Origin: Candidatus Aerophobota bacterium
GTDB lineage: Bacteria > Aerophobota > Aerophobia > Aerophobales > JAGGXI01
NCBI GenBank assembly: GCA_021163155.1
Contig: JAGGXI010000039.1
Coordinates: 1 to 28,050, forward strand
DNA: 28,050 bases
Direction of reading: 5' to 3'
Below the pieces are notes generated by a model. The model had not been told where the DNA came from. It was given only the letters and a program-made list of their open reading frames with translations, and ran no database searches. Below are positions 1 through 3,294 of the stretch, one piece after another. The stretch's first letter is position 1. Every line of letters begins with the position of its first letter. The position numbers and the translations under genes were made by a program.

Positions 1-33
1 AACTTAAAAAAAACAAAAAAGGAGGTGAGATTA

Positions 34-117
34 ATGAAAGCTAAGTTAATAAAGGCGTTGTTTGTTATTACATCTCTTCTGCTTGCTGGTGGTGCTAATA
101 TTCATTGGGGTGGTTAA
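34..117 (+). CDS. 27-residue secreted-looking peptide upstream of HD-GYP gene
   Basis: This short ORF starts with ATG 8 bases after GGAGG. The whole AAGGAGGTGA at 19-28 is complementary to the usual 16S rRNA 3' end, so strong translation is expected. The peptide begins MKAKLIKAL, continues with a hydrophobic stretch (residues 8-20) and ends GGANIHWGG. It has three lysines in the first seven residues, a short hydrophobic core and a Gly-Gly-Ala that could be a signal-peptidase-like site. Cleavage there would release NIHWGG. The general design resembles short hydrophobic pheromone precursors of Gram-positive bacteria, some of which end in Gly-Gly, but no family was recognised. It lies 112 bases upstream of, and in the same direction as, a membrane HD-GYP protein and a DUF5317 protein. 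A role as exported signal, leader peptide or small membrane protein is inference. The ORF is likely real because of its ribosome site and amphipathic design. Confidence 0.6.
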   Translation: MKAKLIKALFVITSLLLAGGANIHWGG

Positions 118-165
118 AGAGAAAAAGACAGAACTAAAGGAAAAATAAAAAGAAAGAAAAAAAAA

Positions 166-211
166 CTTAAAAAAAGAGAGGGAAGATATTTATTAATTTG
201 CTTTTTTTAAG
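166..211 (+). repeat. 11-bp inverted repeat before the HD-GYP gene
   Basis: CTTAAAAAAAG at 166-176 is the exact reverse complement of CTTTTTTTAAG at 201-211, with a 24-base loop. It lies in the purine-rich leader between the small peptide and the HD-GYP start and ends just before that gene's TAAGGAG ribosome site (215-221). The stem is A/T only and weak. It could modulate readthrough or translation, but this is inference. Confidence 0.4.
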
Positions 212-229
212 AAGTAAGGAGCAAAAGAT

Positions 230-1474
230 TTGCCGGGTATTGGTAAAGGGACAAGGATATATACAATTGCTATCAGTTGTATTGGTATAGCTTTATTAGT
301 TTACTGGACATCCAACATATCTTTAAAAGGAGAAATATTAAGAGGATTTCTTTTTTGGGCAGTTTTGTCTGTAATGATTGAATCAATGCCAATATATTTA
401 TCGCGACAGGAGATTGTTACTCTCGGTTTTCCTATAACTTATGCTTCTCTTTTAATTTATGGGCCAGGGATTAGCAGCTGGGTAGCTATTTGTGGAGCAA
501 TTATAGGAGTTGGACGAAGCAAAAAGTTAAAGATAGATAGAGTCTTATTCAATATCTCCCAGCTTACTCTTTCTATTTCTATAGCCTGGATTATTTACCA
601 AAAATCAGGTGGAACACTTATTACTTCTAATTCTGTATATTCTTTTTTTCCTTTGGTTTTCTCGGCAGGGACATATTTTTTAGCCAACACTTTTTTAGTA
701 AGTACAGTGATTGCTCTACAACAAAAAGCCTCTATTTTTAAAATAGGATTGTTTAGCTTCAAATACACCACTTTAAATTATTTAGCTCAAGTTCCTATTG
801 CAATTTTAATGGCAATAATTTATAGACAGATAAGTTGGTGGGCAAGTCTATTTCTTCTTTTCCCTATTTTTATTGCTCATTATGTCTACAGATTGTATGC
901 AAATTTACAGAAACAGCATTTAGATACTATTCAGGCTTTAGCTACAGCTATAGAAGCGAGAGACTCTTATACTGAAAACCACTCTCGAAGAATGGCCGAG
1001 TATGCTTTTTTAGTAGCCAAACAGATAGGACTTTCTATAAATGAAGCAGAAACAATAGAATATGCTGCTATATTGCATGATATTGGTAAAATTGGCATTA
1101 ACGATAACATTCTTAATAAACCCGGACCATTAACTGAAAAGGAACGGGTTAAAATGAAAAAACATGTTAAGATAGGAGCAAATATTCTTACTCGTATTGA
1201 CTCATTTAAAGAAGCTTCACGAATAGTGTATCATCATCATGAAAGATACGATGGTAAAGGATATCCCGATAAATTAAAAGGAAAGGAAATTCCTATAGGA
1301 GCAAGAATTCTCAGTGTGATAGACGCTTATGACGCTATAACTTCAGAAAGACCCTATCGCCCAGCTCGTTCTGCTAAAGAAGCAATAGAGGAAATAAAGA
1401 AAAATGCAGGAACACAGTTCGATGAAAAGGTAGTTAAAATTTTCTTGAAAGTGCTAAAGCAAAATGTTACTTGA
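230..1474 (+). CDS. Membrane-anchored HD-GYP cyclic-di-GMP phosphodiesterase
   Basis: The 414-residue protein should hydrolyse cyclic-di-GMP at the inner face of the membrane. Residues 1 to about 225 form a multi-pass membrane region (about seven hydrophobic segments) that resembles MASE-type sensor domains; I cannot assign the exact family. The rest is a complete HD-GYP domain: the HD pair at 283-284 in AILHDIGKIG, and HHHERYDGKGYP at 335-346 with the GYP triad. DAYDAIT and RPYR follow as expected. It starts with TTG at 230, 8 bases after TAAGGAG. Its last 11 bases overlap the next gene, so the two are probably translationally coupled. The small peptide at 34-117 precedes it. Known in the family: HD-GYP domains cleave c-di-GMP to pGpG or GMP. 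Inferred: the membrane part senses an external signal, perhaps the upstream peptide. Confidence 0.9.
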   Translation: MPGIGKGTRIYTIAISCIGIALLVYWTSNISLKGEILRGFLFWAVLSVMIESMPIYLSRQEIVTLGFPITYASLLIYGPGISSWVAICGAIIGVGRSKKLKIDRVLFNISQLTLSISIAWIIYQKSGGTLITSNSVYSFFPLVFSAGTYFLANTFLVSTVIALQQKASIFKIGLFSFKYTTLNYLAQVPIAILMAIIYRQISWWASLFLLFPIFIAHYVYRLYANLQKQHLDTIQALATAIEARDSYTENHSRRMAEYAFLVAKQIGLSINEAETIEYAAILHDIGKIGINDNILNKPGPLTEKERVKMKKHVKIGANILTRIDSFKEASRIVYHHHERYDGKGYPDKLKGKEIPIGARILSVIDAYDAITSERPYRPARSAKEAIEEIKKNAGTQFDEKVVKIFLKVLKQNVT

Positions 1475-2024
1475 TGTAATGGTCTACTCTCTGATTATAG
1501 GGTTATTACGAAGAAGAAGGTGGGAAGGATTAGCTACTCTTCCTATAAAAAAGGTAGGATTAATTATTTTAGCATTTTTAATTCAATTTATTCTTGTATT
1601 TTTTGGAGAAAGAAATTGTCAACTGTTTTCTAAGATAGGAATATACCTTCATATTTTCTCCTATATTTTATTGTTAGTAGCACTCTGGTATAGCAAAGAG
1701 ATAAAAGGAATGAAGATTATAGGAATAGGGGTATTGATTAACTTCATAGTTATCCTTGCAAATGGTGGTCAGATGCCTGTATCAGCTAAAGCTCTGTTAA
1801 AAGCAGAGATGAATGATATGCTGCCTCTTTTAAATAGTAAAAGTTATGTTGTCCATACATTATTAACGGAAAAAAGCCACTTAAAATTTTTAGCAGACAT
1901 AATACCTCTTCCTCCTCCTTATCCAAGGACACGTGTTTTGAGTATAGGTGATATAGTTATGGGTGCCGGCCTTTTCATCCTAATTCAGTGTAATATGTCG
2001 AAGAAGAGAAGCAGAGATTTCTGA
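1464..2024 (+). CDS. DUF5317 family integral membrane protein
   Basis: A 186-residue membrane protein with about five hydrophobic helices. It carries the landmarks I associate with DUF5317: ANGGQMPVS near residue 100, then HTLLTEKSHLKFLADIIPLP and a closing segment with RVLSIGDI. Its function is unknown. The start codon lies inside the end of the HD-GYP gene (11-base overlap), and no other start with a better ribosome site was seen, so the two proteins are probably made together and may interact in the membrane. The last residues (about SRDF) and the stop codon fall inside a copy of a dispersed repeat seen elsewhere in the window, so the C-terminal tail may have been altered by repeat insertion. 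Family assignment is from remembered motifs. Confidence 0.75.
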   Translation: MLLDVMVYSLIIGLLRRRRWEGLATLPIKKVGLIILAFLIQFILVFFGERNCQLFSKIGIYLHIFSYILLLVALWYSKEIKGMKIIGIGVLINFIVILANGGQMPVSAKALLKAEMNDMLPLLNSKSYVVHTLLTEKSHLKFLADIIPLPPPYPRTRVLSIGDIVMGAGLFILIQCNMSKKRSRDF

Positions 2025-2232: not shown

Positions 2233-3294
2233 ATGGATATGGAATTTTTATTAAAAATGATGAAGGAGAACGGAGCTTCAGATTTACATATTGTAGCTGG
2301 AGTCCCCCCTATTTTTCGTATTAATGGAGAATTAAAACCATTTGGAGAAAGAAAAATTACTCCTGCAGAGTCAACATCCCTTATTTATTCATTAATGAAT
2401 GAGGAGCAGAAAAAAAATTTTGAAAAGATAAAAGAATTAGATTTCTCTTTCGGTATCTCAGGAACAGGACGCTTTAGAATAAATGCTCATTTTCAACGGG
2501 GTTCGATGGCCGCAGCTGTTAGACATATCTCCAATAATATCCCTTCTATTTCTGAGTTGAATCTTCCGCCTATACTTAATAAATTGGCTCTTACAAAGCA
2601 AGGAATGGTGTTGGTAACAGGGCCAACTGGTTGCGGAAAGTCAACAACTCTAGCAGCTATGGTAGAGATAATAAATAAAGAAAAAGCATTCCATATTATT
2701 ATTATAGAGGACCCTATTGAATATCTTCATTCACACAAAAAAAGTATAGTGGAACAAAGAGAAGTGGGCAATGACACATTCTCCTTTGCTAATGCCTTAA
2801 AATATGCTCTTCGTCAAGACCCAGATGTTATCCTTATAGGGGAATTGAGAGACTTAGAGACTATAAGCACAGCTATTACAGCCGCTGAAACAGGTCACTT
2901 AATTTTAGGAACCTTACATACACCTGATGCTCCTCAGGCTATTGATAGACTTGTCGGTGTTTTTCCTCCTTATCAGCAACCTCAGATAAGGATGCAATTA
3001 TCTACATCTCTTCAAGTAATAATAAACCAAAGGCTTCTTCTTAAAAAGAATGAGGCAGGAAGGGTACCCGCTGTAGAATTATTAATTGCTACGCCTGCGG
3101 TAAGCAATTTAATTCGTAGCGGTAAAACTCATCAGTTATATACAGTTATACAAACGGGGGAACACATAGGAATGCAAACAATGGACCAGGCATTAAAAAA
3201 ACTGGTAGATAAGAGATTAATAAGTTTTGAAACAGCTTTACAAAAAGCAAGGGACCCAAAGAACTTTCAAAGTTTATTTATTAAAAGTAAATGA
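2233..3294 (+). CDS. pilT: PilT-type twitching motility ATPase
   Basis: The 353-residue protein is a full-length hexameric secretion ATPase of the PilT branch, which powers type IV pilus retraction at the cytoplasmic base of the machine. Visible motifs are an N-terminal PAS-like part beginning with the family signature ASDLHI, Walker A GPTGCGKS at 130-137, the Asp box around IIEDPIEYLH, Walker B in DPDVILIGELRD and the His box in LGTLHTPDAPQAIDR. The C-terminal motif TPAVSNLIRSGKTHQLY corresponds to the AIRNLIRE region that separates PilT from PilB. It starts with ATG after AAGGAGAG. No other pilus genes are in the window, so it is either an orphan or its partners are elsewhere. Length and motifs show no damage. 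Confidence 0.93.
   Translation: MDMEFLLKMMKENGASDLHIVAGVPPIFRINGELKPFGERKITPAESTSLIYSLMNEEQKKNFEKIKELDFSFGISGTGRFRINAHFQRGSMAAAVRHISNNIPSISELNLPPILNKLALTKQGMVLVTGPTGCGKSTTLAAMVEIINKEKAFHIIIIEDPIEYLHSHKKSIVEQREVGNDTFSFANALKYALRQDPDVILIGELRDLETISTAITAAETGHLILGTLHTPDAPQAIDRLVGVFPPYQQPQIRMQLSTSLQVIINQRLLLKKNEAGRVPAVELLIATPAVSNLIRSGKTHQLYTVIQTGEHIGMQTMDQALKKLVDKRLISFETALQKARDPKNFQSLFIKSK

Follow-up and report, generated by a model that had tools for sequence, protein, structure and literature searches.

A conserved short peptide encoded beside MASE9 HD-GYP and DUF5317 genes as a likely input to c-di-GMP signalling

The streptococcal SHP/Rgg systems and the enterococcal sex pheromones are built on very short precursors with a basic start, a hydrophobic stretch and the active signal at the C-terminus, and in the Rgg case the precursor gene lies near that of the receptor. 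The peptide considered here shares the short precursor, its basic start and hydrophobic stretch and, as proposed below, a C-terminal signal; by contrast, the receptors of those pheromones are cytosolic and reached by import, whereas here the adjacent gene encodes a c-di-GMP enzyme of the membrane. In the RpfC/RpfG system, signals passed between cells likewise end at an HD-GYP phosphodiesterase; there, however, the signal (DSF) is a fatty acid and its sensor a histidine kinase distinct from that enzyme, while in the present locus sensor and HD-GYP domain belong to a single polypeptide and the signal is proposed to be a peptide with a gene of its own. Unlike Agr-type cyclic peptides, the peptide has no conserved Cys and its neighbouring membrane protein belongs, by Pfam, to DUF5317 and not to AgrB; unlike the cytosolic TPR receptors of RRNPP pheromones, the adjacent protein is of the MASE9-HD-GYP type, and NprX and Phr models run against single peptide members gave chance-level matches only. 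The proteins CydX, KdpF and CbiN are generally known as small, membrane-directed and encoded in an operon with a membrane partner, all of which applies to the peptide as well; the latter nevertheless matches no family, has a shorter hydrophobic stretch and carries a variable tail.

Two reports extend the comparison. One concerns PptAB export in the pheromone systems (PMC5167397). In the other, Vibrio cholerae DbfQ is a small protein encoded beside the membrane sensor system on which it acts in the control of biofilms, which resembles the present arrangement, but DbfQ is periplasmic and its target a two-component system, not a c-di-GMP enzyme (PMC12714742). Literature searches of partial coverage returned nothing relevant on a Thermotoga peptide, on links between peptides and HD-GYP proteins, on MASE9 or on a connection between S-components and HD-GYP domains, and no paper naming DUF5317. 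The module of peptide, HD-GYP and DUF5317 genes described below is real, ancient and apparently undescribed.

The locus at the start of the contig

The window, i.e. the whole analysed stretch of 28,050 nucleotides, begins at base 1 of contig C89 in a 1.83 Mb draft genome of Candidatus Aerophobetes and has the following features.

1..127, no strand: assembler overlap, the start of C89 being identical to the end of contig C97 over exactly 127 bases
19..28, + strand: strong Shine-Dalgarno sequence AAGGAGGTGA ahead of the peptide gene; relatives have an identical or similar one
34..117, + strand: peptide gene, 27 codons, for the 27-residue MKAKLIKALFVITSLLLAGGANIHWGG; ATG at 34, stop at 115-117
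85..96, + strand: nearly invariant AGGA codons, with small residues at -1 and -3 (61 sequences); predicted signal-peptidase-type cut after base 96
97..114, + strand: codons of the tail NIHWGG, variable where LAGGA is constant; proposed released hexapeptide
230..1474, + strand: predicted membrane HD-GYP c-di-GMP phosphodiesterase, 414 aa, TTG start at 230 (HD_5; AlphaFold2 model with PDB match)
263..886, + strand: MASE9 membrane domain, residues 12-219, by Pfam; predicted ECF S-component fold (Z 16.3 to 4m5b, 15.1 to RibU)
938..1432, + strand: HD-GYP catalytic domain, residues 237-401, with invariant metal-site motifs
1464..2024, + strand: DUF5317 membrane protein, 186 aa (Pfam, 5.3e-49), its gene overlapping the HD-GYP gene by 11 bases
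2233..3294, + strand: PilT-type pilus ATPase, the next gene in the Aerophobota version; possible c-di-GMP-controlled output

An earlier note on this DNA had described a 27-codon ORF with a lysine-rich start, a hydrophobic core, the ending NIHWGG and a ten-base Shine-Dalgarno sequence, all of which are present, the ten bases of AAGGAGGTGA matching the anti-Shine-Dalgarno complement; its multi-TM HD-GYP gene overlapping the DUF5317 gene by 11 bases was likewise borne out. The bases shared by the start of C89 and the end of C97 are read here as an assembly break within a tandem array of peptide genes, and the window's genome may thus carry more than one copy, as relatives do.

Several draft genomes have contigs that end inside or beside the peptide ORF, often just after LAGGA (G050:C43, G132:C52, G121:C21, G307:C5, G022:C100, G010:C15, G013:C236 and G000:C97). 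Tandem copies or strain-specific differences in the tail could be the cause.

Reach, linkage and anatomy of the peptide family

The peptide is conserved, keeps its position, is constrained as coding sequence, follows a signal-peptide-like pattern and co-occurs with the other genes of the module. Searches of 40 family members against Pfam and NCBIfam returned chance-level matches only and hence no family match, and a scan of genome contigs with one single peptide sequence as query found nothing. When all 17 Aerophobota genomes were scanned with a profile, on the other hand, strong matches (E 4e-17 to 4e-8) appeared at HD-GYP/DUF5317 loci and where contigs end. Those Aerophobota relatives that have DUF5317, and whose DNA upstream could be read, encode a peptide of 24-30 residues before the HD-GYP gene, in several of them in two or three tandem copies; the first of two tandem copies in L013 (41-205) has lost the customary stop, so that its frame extends by some 30 residues.

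The Bacillota group was sampled with 398 genomes, of which 118 have DUF5317 and 94 the peptide. Control searches also gave DUF5317 matches in Thermotoga and Thermus. In most of the 80 DUF5317 loci taken from the 398 genomes an HD-GYP gene lies immediately 5' of DUF5317, and the common order in Bacillota is hpf, an unnamed gene of about 220 aa, peptide, HD-GYP, DUF5317 and secA. In one Actinomycetota genome the order hpf, unnamed gene, peptide (VKARIYTILTALATLVLAGGARFRF) and HD-GYP recurs, with DUF5317 on a separate contig. The earlier note had asked for a short ORF conserved near HD-GYP/DUF5317 pairs, and it is there at 76 of 76 distinct readable loci in Aerophobota and Bacillota, counting L026 and L110, two of the 77 positive rows, as one locus and leaving out loci with upstream DNA that runs off the contig. 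The tally stood at 63 before 13 more and then a last one were added; the 13 have two HD-GYP genes before DUF5317 or fell outside an initial search range that was too narrow.

How specific is this linkage? A profile built from 40 peptides and applied blind to all six frames of the same 398 genomes (E <= 1e-4, short open frames) recovered the peptide in 85 of 114 DUF5317-positive but only two of 284 DUF5317-negative genomes (Fisher 1.5e-58, a value that ignores kinship). In both exceptions, G050 and G132, the contig breaks off within the peptide, just before the expected remainder of the operon. All 80 peptide matches that share a contig with DUF5317 lie 1.36-3.2 kb upstream of it on the same strand. 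In four further genomes (G163, G242, G337 and G358; loci L184, L186, L188 and L190) DUF5317 is on another contig and the peptide still precedes the MASE9 HD-GYP gene; around the displaced DUF5317 of G163, G242 and G337, whose surroundings were read, neither HD-GYP nor peptide was found.

The ORF is constrained at the protein level, in line with the test that the earlier note had set. Across seven groups of related loci, pS was 0.52 and pN 0.13, and differences at codon positions 1, 2 and 3 numbered 395, 218 and 862; the constraint was lost when the same DNA was read one or two bases off (pS/pN 0.23/0.23 and 0.14/0.24). Since the profile matches almost only at this position, and since the codons are constrained, the association goes far beyond chance. 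In the record inspected for Natranaerobius, the peptide ORF is missing from the gene table.

The common plan of the peptide comprises a basic start, with mostly two or three K/R among the first nine residues, a ten-residue core (median hydropathy 3.2), the motif L-x-L-A-G-G-A and a tail of 4-6 residues. Residue -1 is A, G or S in 61 of 61 peptides and residue -3 in 60 of 61 (the remaining one having a gap), in agreement with the -3/-1 rule of signal peptidase; together with the basic n-region and the hydrophobic h-region this makes up the sequence pattern of a Sec signal peptide of the signal peptidase I type. A lipoprotein signal peptide is not indicated, as G stands where Cys should follow L-A-G and any Cys occurs in only 4/61. 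LAGGA is nearly fixed across the family and the tail varies: when members of a related group are compared, the fraction of differences is 0-0.08 for AGGA as against 0.43-0.57 for the tail. The exact His-Trp-Gly ending, the conservation of which the earlier note had proposed to check, is not conserved; the tails follow a looser pattern, roughly N, an aromatic or aliphatic residue, a basic or polar one, then W, L, M or F and up to two G (e.g. NFRW, NYRW, NFKLGG, HVKW, VWKWY), and some tails have neither a basic residue nor W. A fixed cut-like motif followed by a short variable tail would be the expected look of a processed signal, though no proof of one; the supposed signal is less well conserved than AGGA and the hydrophobic stretch, which would also fit a segment packing in the membrane.

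The membrane partners

The HD-GYP protein (230-1474) matches HD_5 at 6e-42, and H283 D284, H336 H337 E338 and G342 G344 Y345 P346 are invariant in 15 sequences, as befits the HD metal site and the HHE and DGxGYP motifs. Its N-terminal half was assigned to MASE9 (PF20972) with 39.6 bits against a curated cut-off of 24.3, and MASE9 was likewise found in L026, L101, L104 and Natranaerobius. In an AlphaFold2 model of the protein (pLDDT 86, pTM 0.68), the catalytic half matches solved HD-GYP domains with Z of 25-26. The membrane half matches the S-component of a transition-metal transporter, 4m5b (VIA-align Z 16.3, 3.1 A over 190 residues), followed by RibU (15.1), BioY (12.9), CbiM (12.8) and ThiT (11.6), on a scale on which helical folds may reach about 13 from their arrangement alone. 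Among the matches listed, however, it resembles no membrane fold besides S-components, and S-components that are unrelated in sequence come out side by side, ahead of every other membrane protein. The MASE9 domain is accordingly predicted to adopt the ECF S-component fold, from which it differs in being fused to HD-GYP and in its sequence identity of 8-13%. No gene for the transporter partners EcfT or EcfA lies beside the HD-GYP gene, its neighbours at the locus being the peptide, DUF5317 and PilT or SecA. S-components bind vitamin-sized ligands or metal ions, and a peptide of 4-6 residues is near that size range.

The assignment of the adjacent gene to DUF5317 is firm (PF17248, 166.5 bits against a cut-off of 25), and G89, N93, P105, D145, G162, D163 and G169 are invariant in 98 sequences. 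For its AlphaFold2 model (pLDDT 87, pTM 0.82), no PDB entry matched at E <= 0.001 and Z did not exceed 4.8, and a sequence search for solved relatives returned none. Two invariant Asp 18 apart and a GDxxxxxG pattern had suggested a distant signal peptidase II (LspA), an idea that gained no support from the comparisons: the hhalign score of DUF5317 against Peptidase_A8 was 19.3, three of 60 column-shuffled controls scored higher, and no LspA appears among the fold matches listed. LspA itself was not found in the window's genome (G000) or in G011-G016, some of which are at least 90% complete. DUF5317 is often fused to an MFS transporter in Actinomycetota, one type matching a transmembrane secretion effector, and in Euzebya to EAL (L237, L240, L241 and L245 in Actinomycetota; L234:3836-6376). 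Such fusions hint at a role in the membrane or in export.

A GGDEF-EAL protein can replace the HD-GYP enzyme while the peptide is retained. In Euzebya pacifica (Actinomycetota), where the upstream enzyme is a GGDEF-EAL protein and DUF5317 is the one fused to EAL, the peptide MSPRTRKALMNLAALVAVILATGAPQKWG ends 13 bases 5' of the GGDEF-EAL gene, and in another member of the phylum (G666) MNSRSKLMLFNLMVLVSVVAVAAAPYKWW precedes GGDEF-EAL and DUF5317.

Released signal or retained subunit?

The module is likely to serve as a signalling input to c-di-GMP. In the reading that we favour, the peptide would be made as a minimal Sec-type precursor consisting of the basic start, about ten strongly hydrophobic residues and AGGA; it would be inserted in or exported across the membrane, and a cut after GGA would free a tail of 4-6 residues, here NIHWGG. 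The S-component-like MASE9 receptor would bind this tail, which may raise or lower c-di-GMP hydrolysis by the HD-GYP domain, while DUF5317 might assist in the membrane by processing, export or presentation. Pili are a conceivable output in Aerophobota, through c-di-GMP control of the PilT-type ATPase. This reading as a whole, an exported and processed peptide that is sensed by MASE9 and sets c-di-GMP, is quite possible, if somewhat short of probable. The earlier note had already proposed the peptide, perhaps cut to NIHWGG, as ligand of the HD-GYP membrane domain, with DUF5317 as putative exporter, processor or co-receptor, and this interpretation is partly supported. A ligand role of the tail gains from the predicted fold of MASE9, from the fixed -3/-1 residues ahead of a variable tail and from the GGDEF-EAL swap that keeps the peptide; that the tail is very short speaks against the favoured reading.

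Is the peptide released at all, or is it retained uncut as a membrane micro-subunit (N-in, C-out), its AGGA packing against MASE9 and/or DUF5317, that is needed for assembly or for setting activity in the manner of CydX, KdpF or CbiN? The hydrophobic and AGGA segment is the most conserved part of the peptide and the gene order is constant, as such a subunit would have it. CbiM, moreover, is among the matches to the predicted S-component fold of MASE9 and works with, and needs, the small membrane partner CbiN, which keeps this alternative alive. Yet the uninterrupted, uncharged run is 14 residues in 33 of the 61 peptides, which is short for a transmembrane helix or membrane anchor, and a processed signal accounts better for tandem identical copies and for a tail that changes fast while the small-x-small motif before it stays fixed. 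Release is favoured, and the uncut subunit is a serious contender that we would nevertheless call doubtful.

Distances between the proteins bear on which partner the peptide would touch. Tail distance followed MASE9 distance once catalytic-domain distance was removed (partial 0.29, 0/500 permutations) and DUF5317 distance less closely (0.20), and peptide-core distance went slightly better with DUF5317 (0.23) than with MASE9 (0.17), all in partial Mantel tests, which are lenient with related sequences; this pattern weakly suggests contacts between tail and MASE9 and between core and DUF5317.

The second of these relations also fits the view that DUF5317 is the primary partner of the peptide, as processing enzyme or receptor, and the c-di-GMP enzyme merely a frequent output. 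Polar N93, N100, D145 and D163 of DUF5317 are invariant or nearly so, and copies that have no HD-GYP of this type adjacent are accompanied by other peptides: MMKKVLFWFTVASMVLAAVARFPWH in a STAS/Spo0E-like class and MKKFEGVKYSRIVINAIIVASVVVALTSGYKLGG with its relatives at five loci of large Bacillota genomes (L086-L089, L091), both without an adjacent MASE9 HD-GYP, besides MYKLMARFGFIVVLLLSAWAGWRW, present twice in G146, and MKAKVKYTLQIAALIALALGPVVGKPWW in G418. Where the genes separate, however, the peptide remains with MASE9 HD-GYP, and at most inspected Actinomycetota DUF5317 loci no peptide was visible to the filters used, so that peptide and DUF5317 are not inseparable. We consider a DUF5317-centred arrangement unlikely.

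A leader peptide, of which translation and not the product would control the enzyme by attenuation or translational coupling, agrees with an ORF that lies directly upstream and has a strong ribosome-binding site, but it is highly improbable given protein-level constraint over the full length and across phyla, many peptide-to-enzyme spacers of only 5-50 nt that leave little room for hairpins, tandem copies, peptides of similar make downstream of DUF5317 in other classes, and an Rfam search of the window that found no match, for which reason an RNA element was set aside as well. A type I toxin was discarded, being at odds with an operon partner that stays the same from phylum to phylum.

What would follow if the favoured reading of a released, MASE9-sensed peptide were true? 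A peptide with its own gene would then act on c-di-GMP in a single step, and would do so in Aerophobota, in much of Bacillota and in part of Actinomycetota; DUF5317 and MASE9 would acquire a function, the S-component fold would be tied to c-di-GMP signalling, and the ORF absent from the Natranaerobius gene table would be explained. Cultured members such as Natranaerobius make the idea testable with very short synthetic peptides. More tentatively, the peptides might form an undescribed and widespread class of cell-cell or self-sensing signals. Each would have 4-6 residues, come from a precursor of 24-30 residues that is nothing but a signal peptide, and bind straight to an S-component-like membrane receptor that is either part of a c-di-GMP enzyme by fusion or coupled with one; DUF5317 would be a dedicated accessory, and neither a kinase nor a transcription factor would stand between peptide and c-di-GMP metabolism. 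This is quite conceivable, but we would not call it probable.

Two further observations concern genes around the module. A DUF5317 paralog class lies beside a STAS protein (L103:3013-4317, L098, L102, L105, L107, L109) and has its own peptide downstream; some of its loci encode an HD protein with a Spo0E-like end. The L109 copy is apparently frameshifted. The protein of about 220 aa whose gene separates hpf from that of the peptide has no Pfam match; seen at 64 loci (L026:2868-3527 and its relatives), it is conserved in most Bacillota versions and in one Actinomycetota version.
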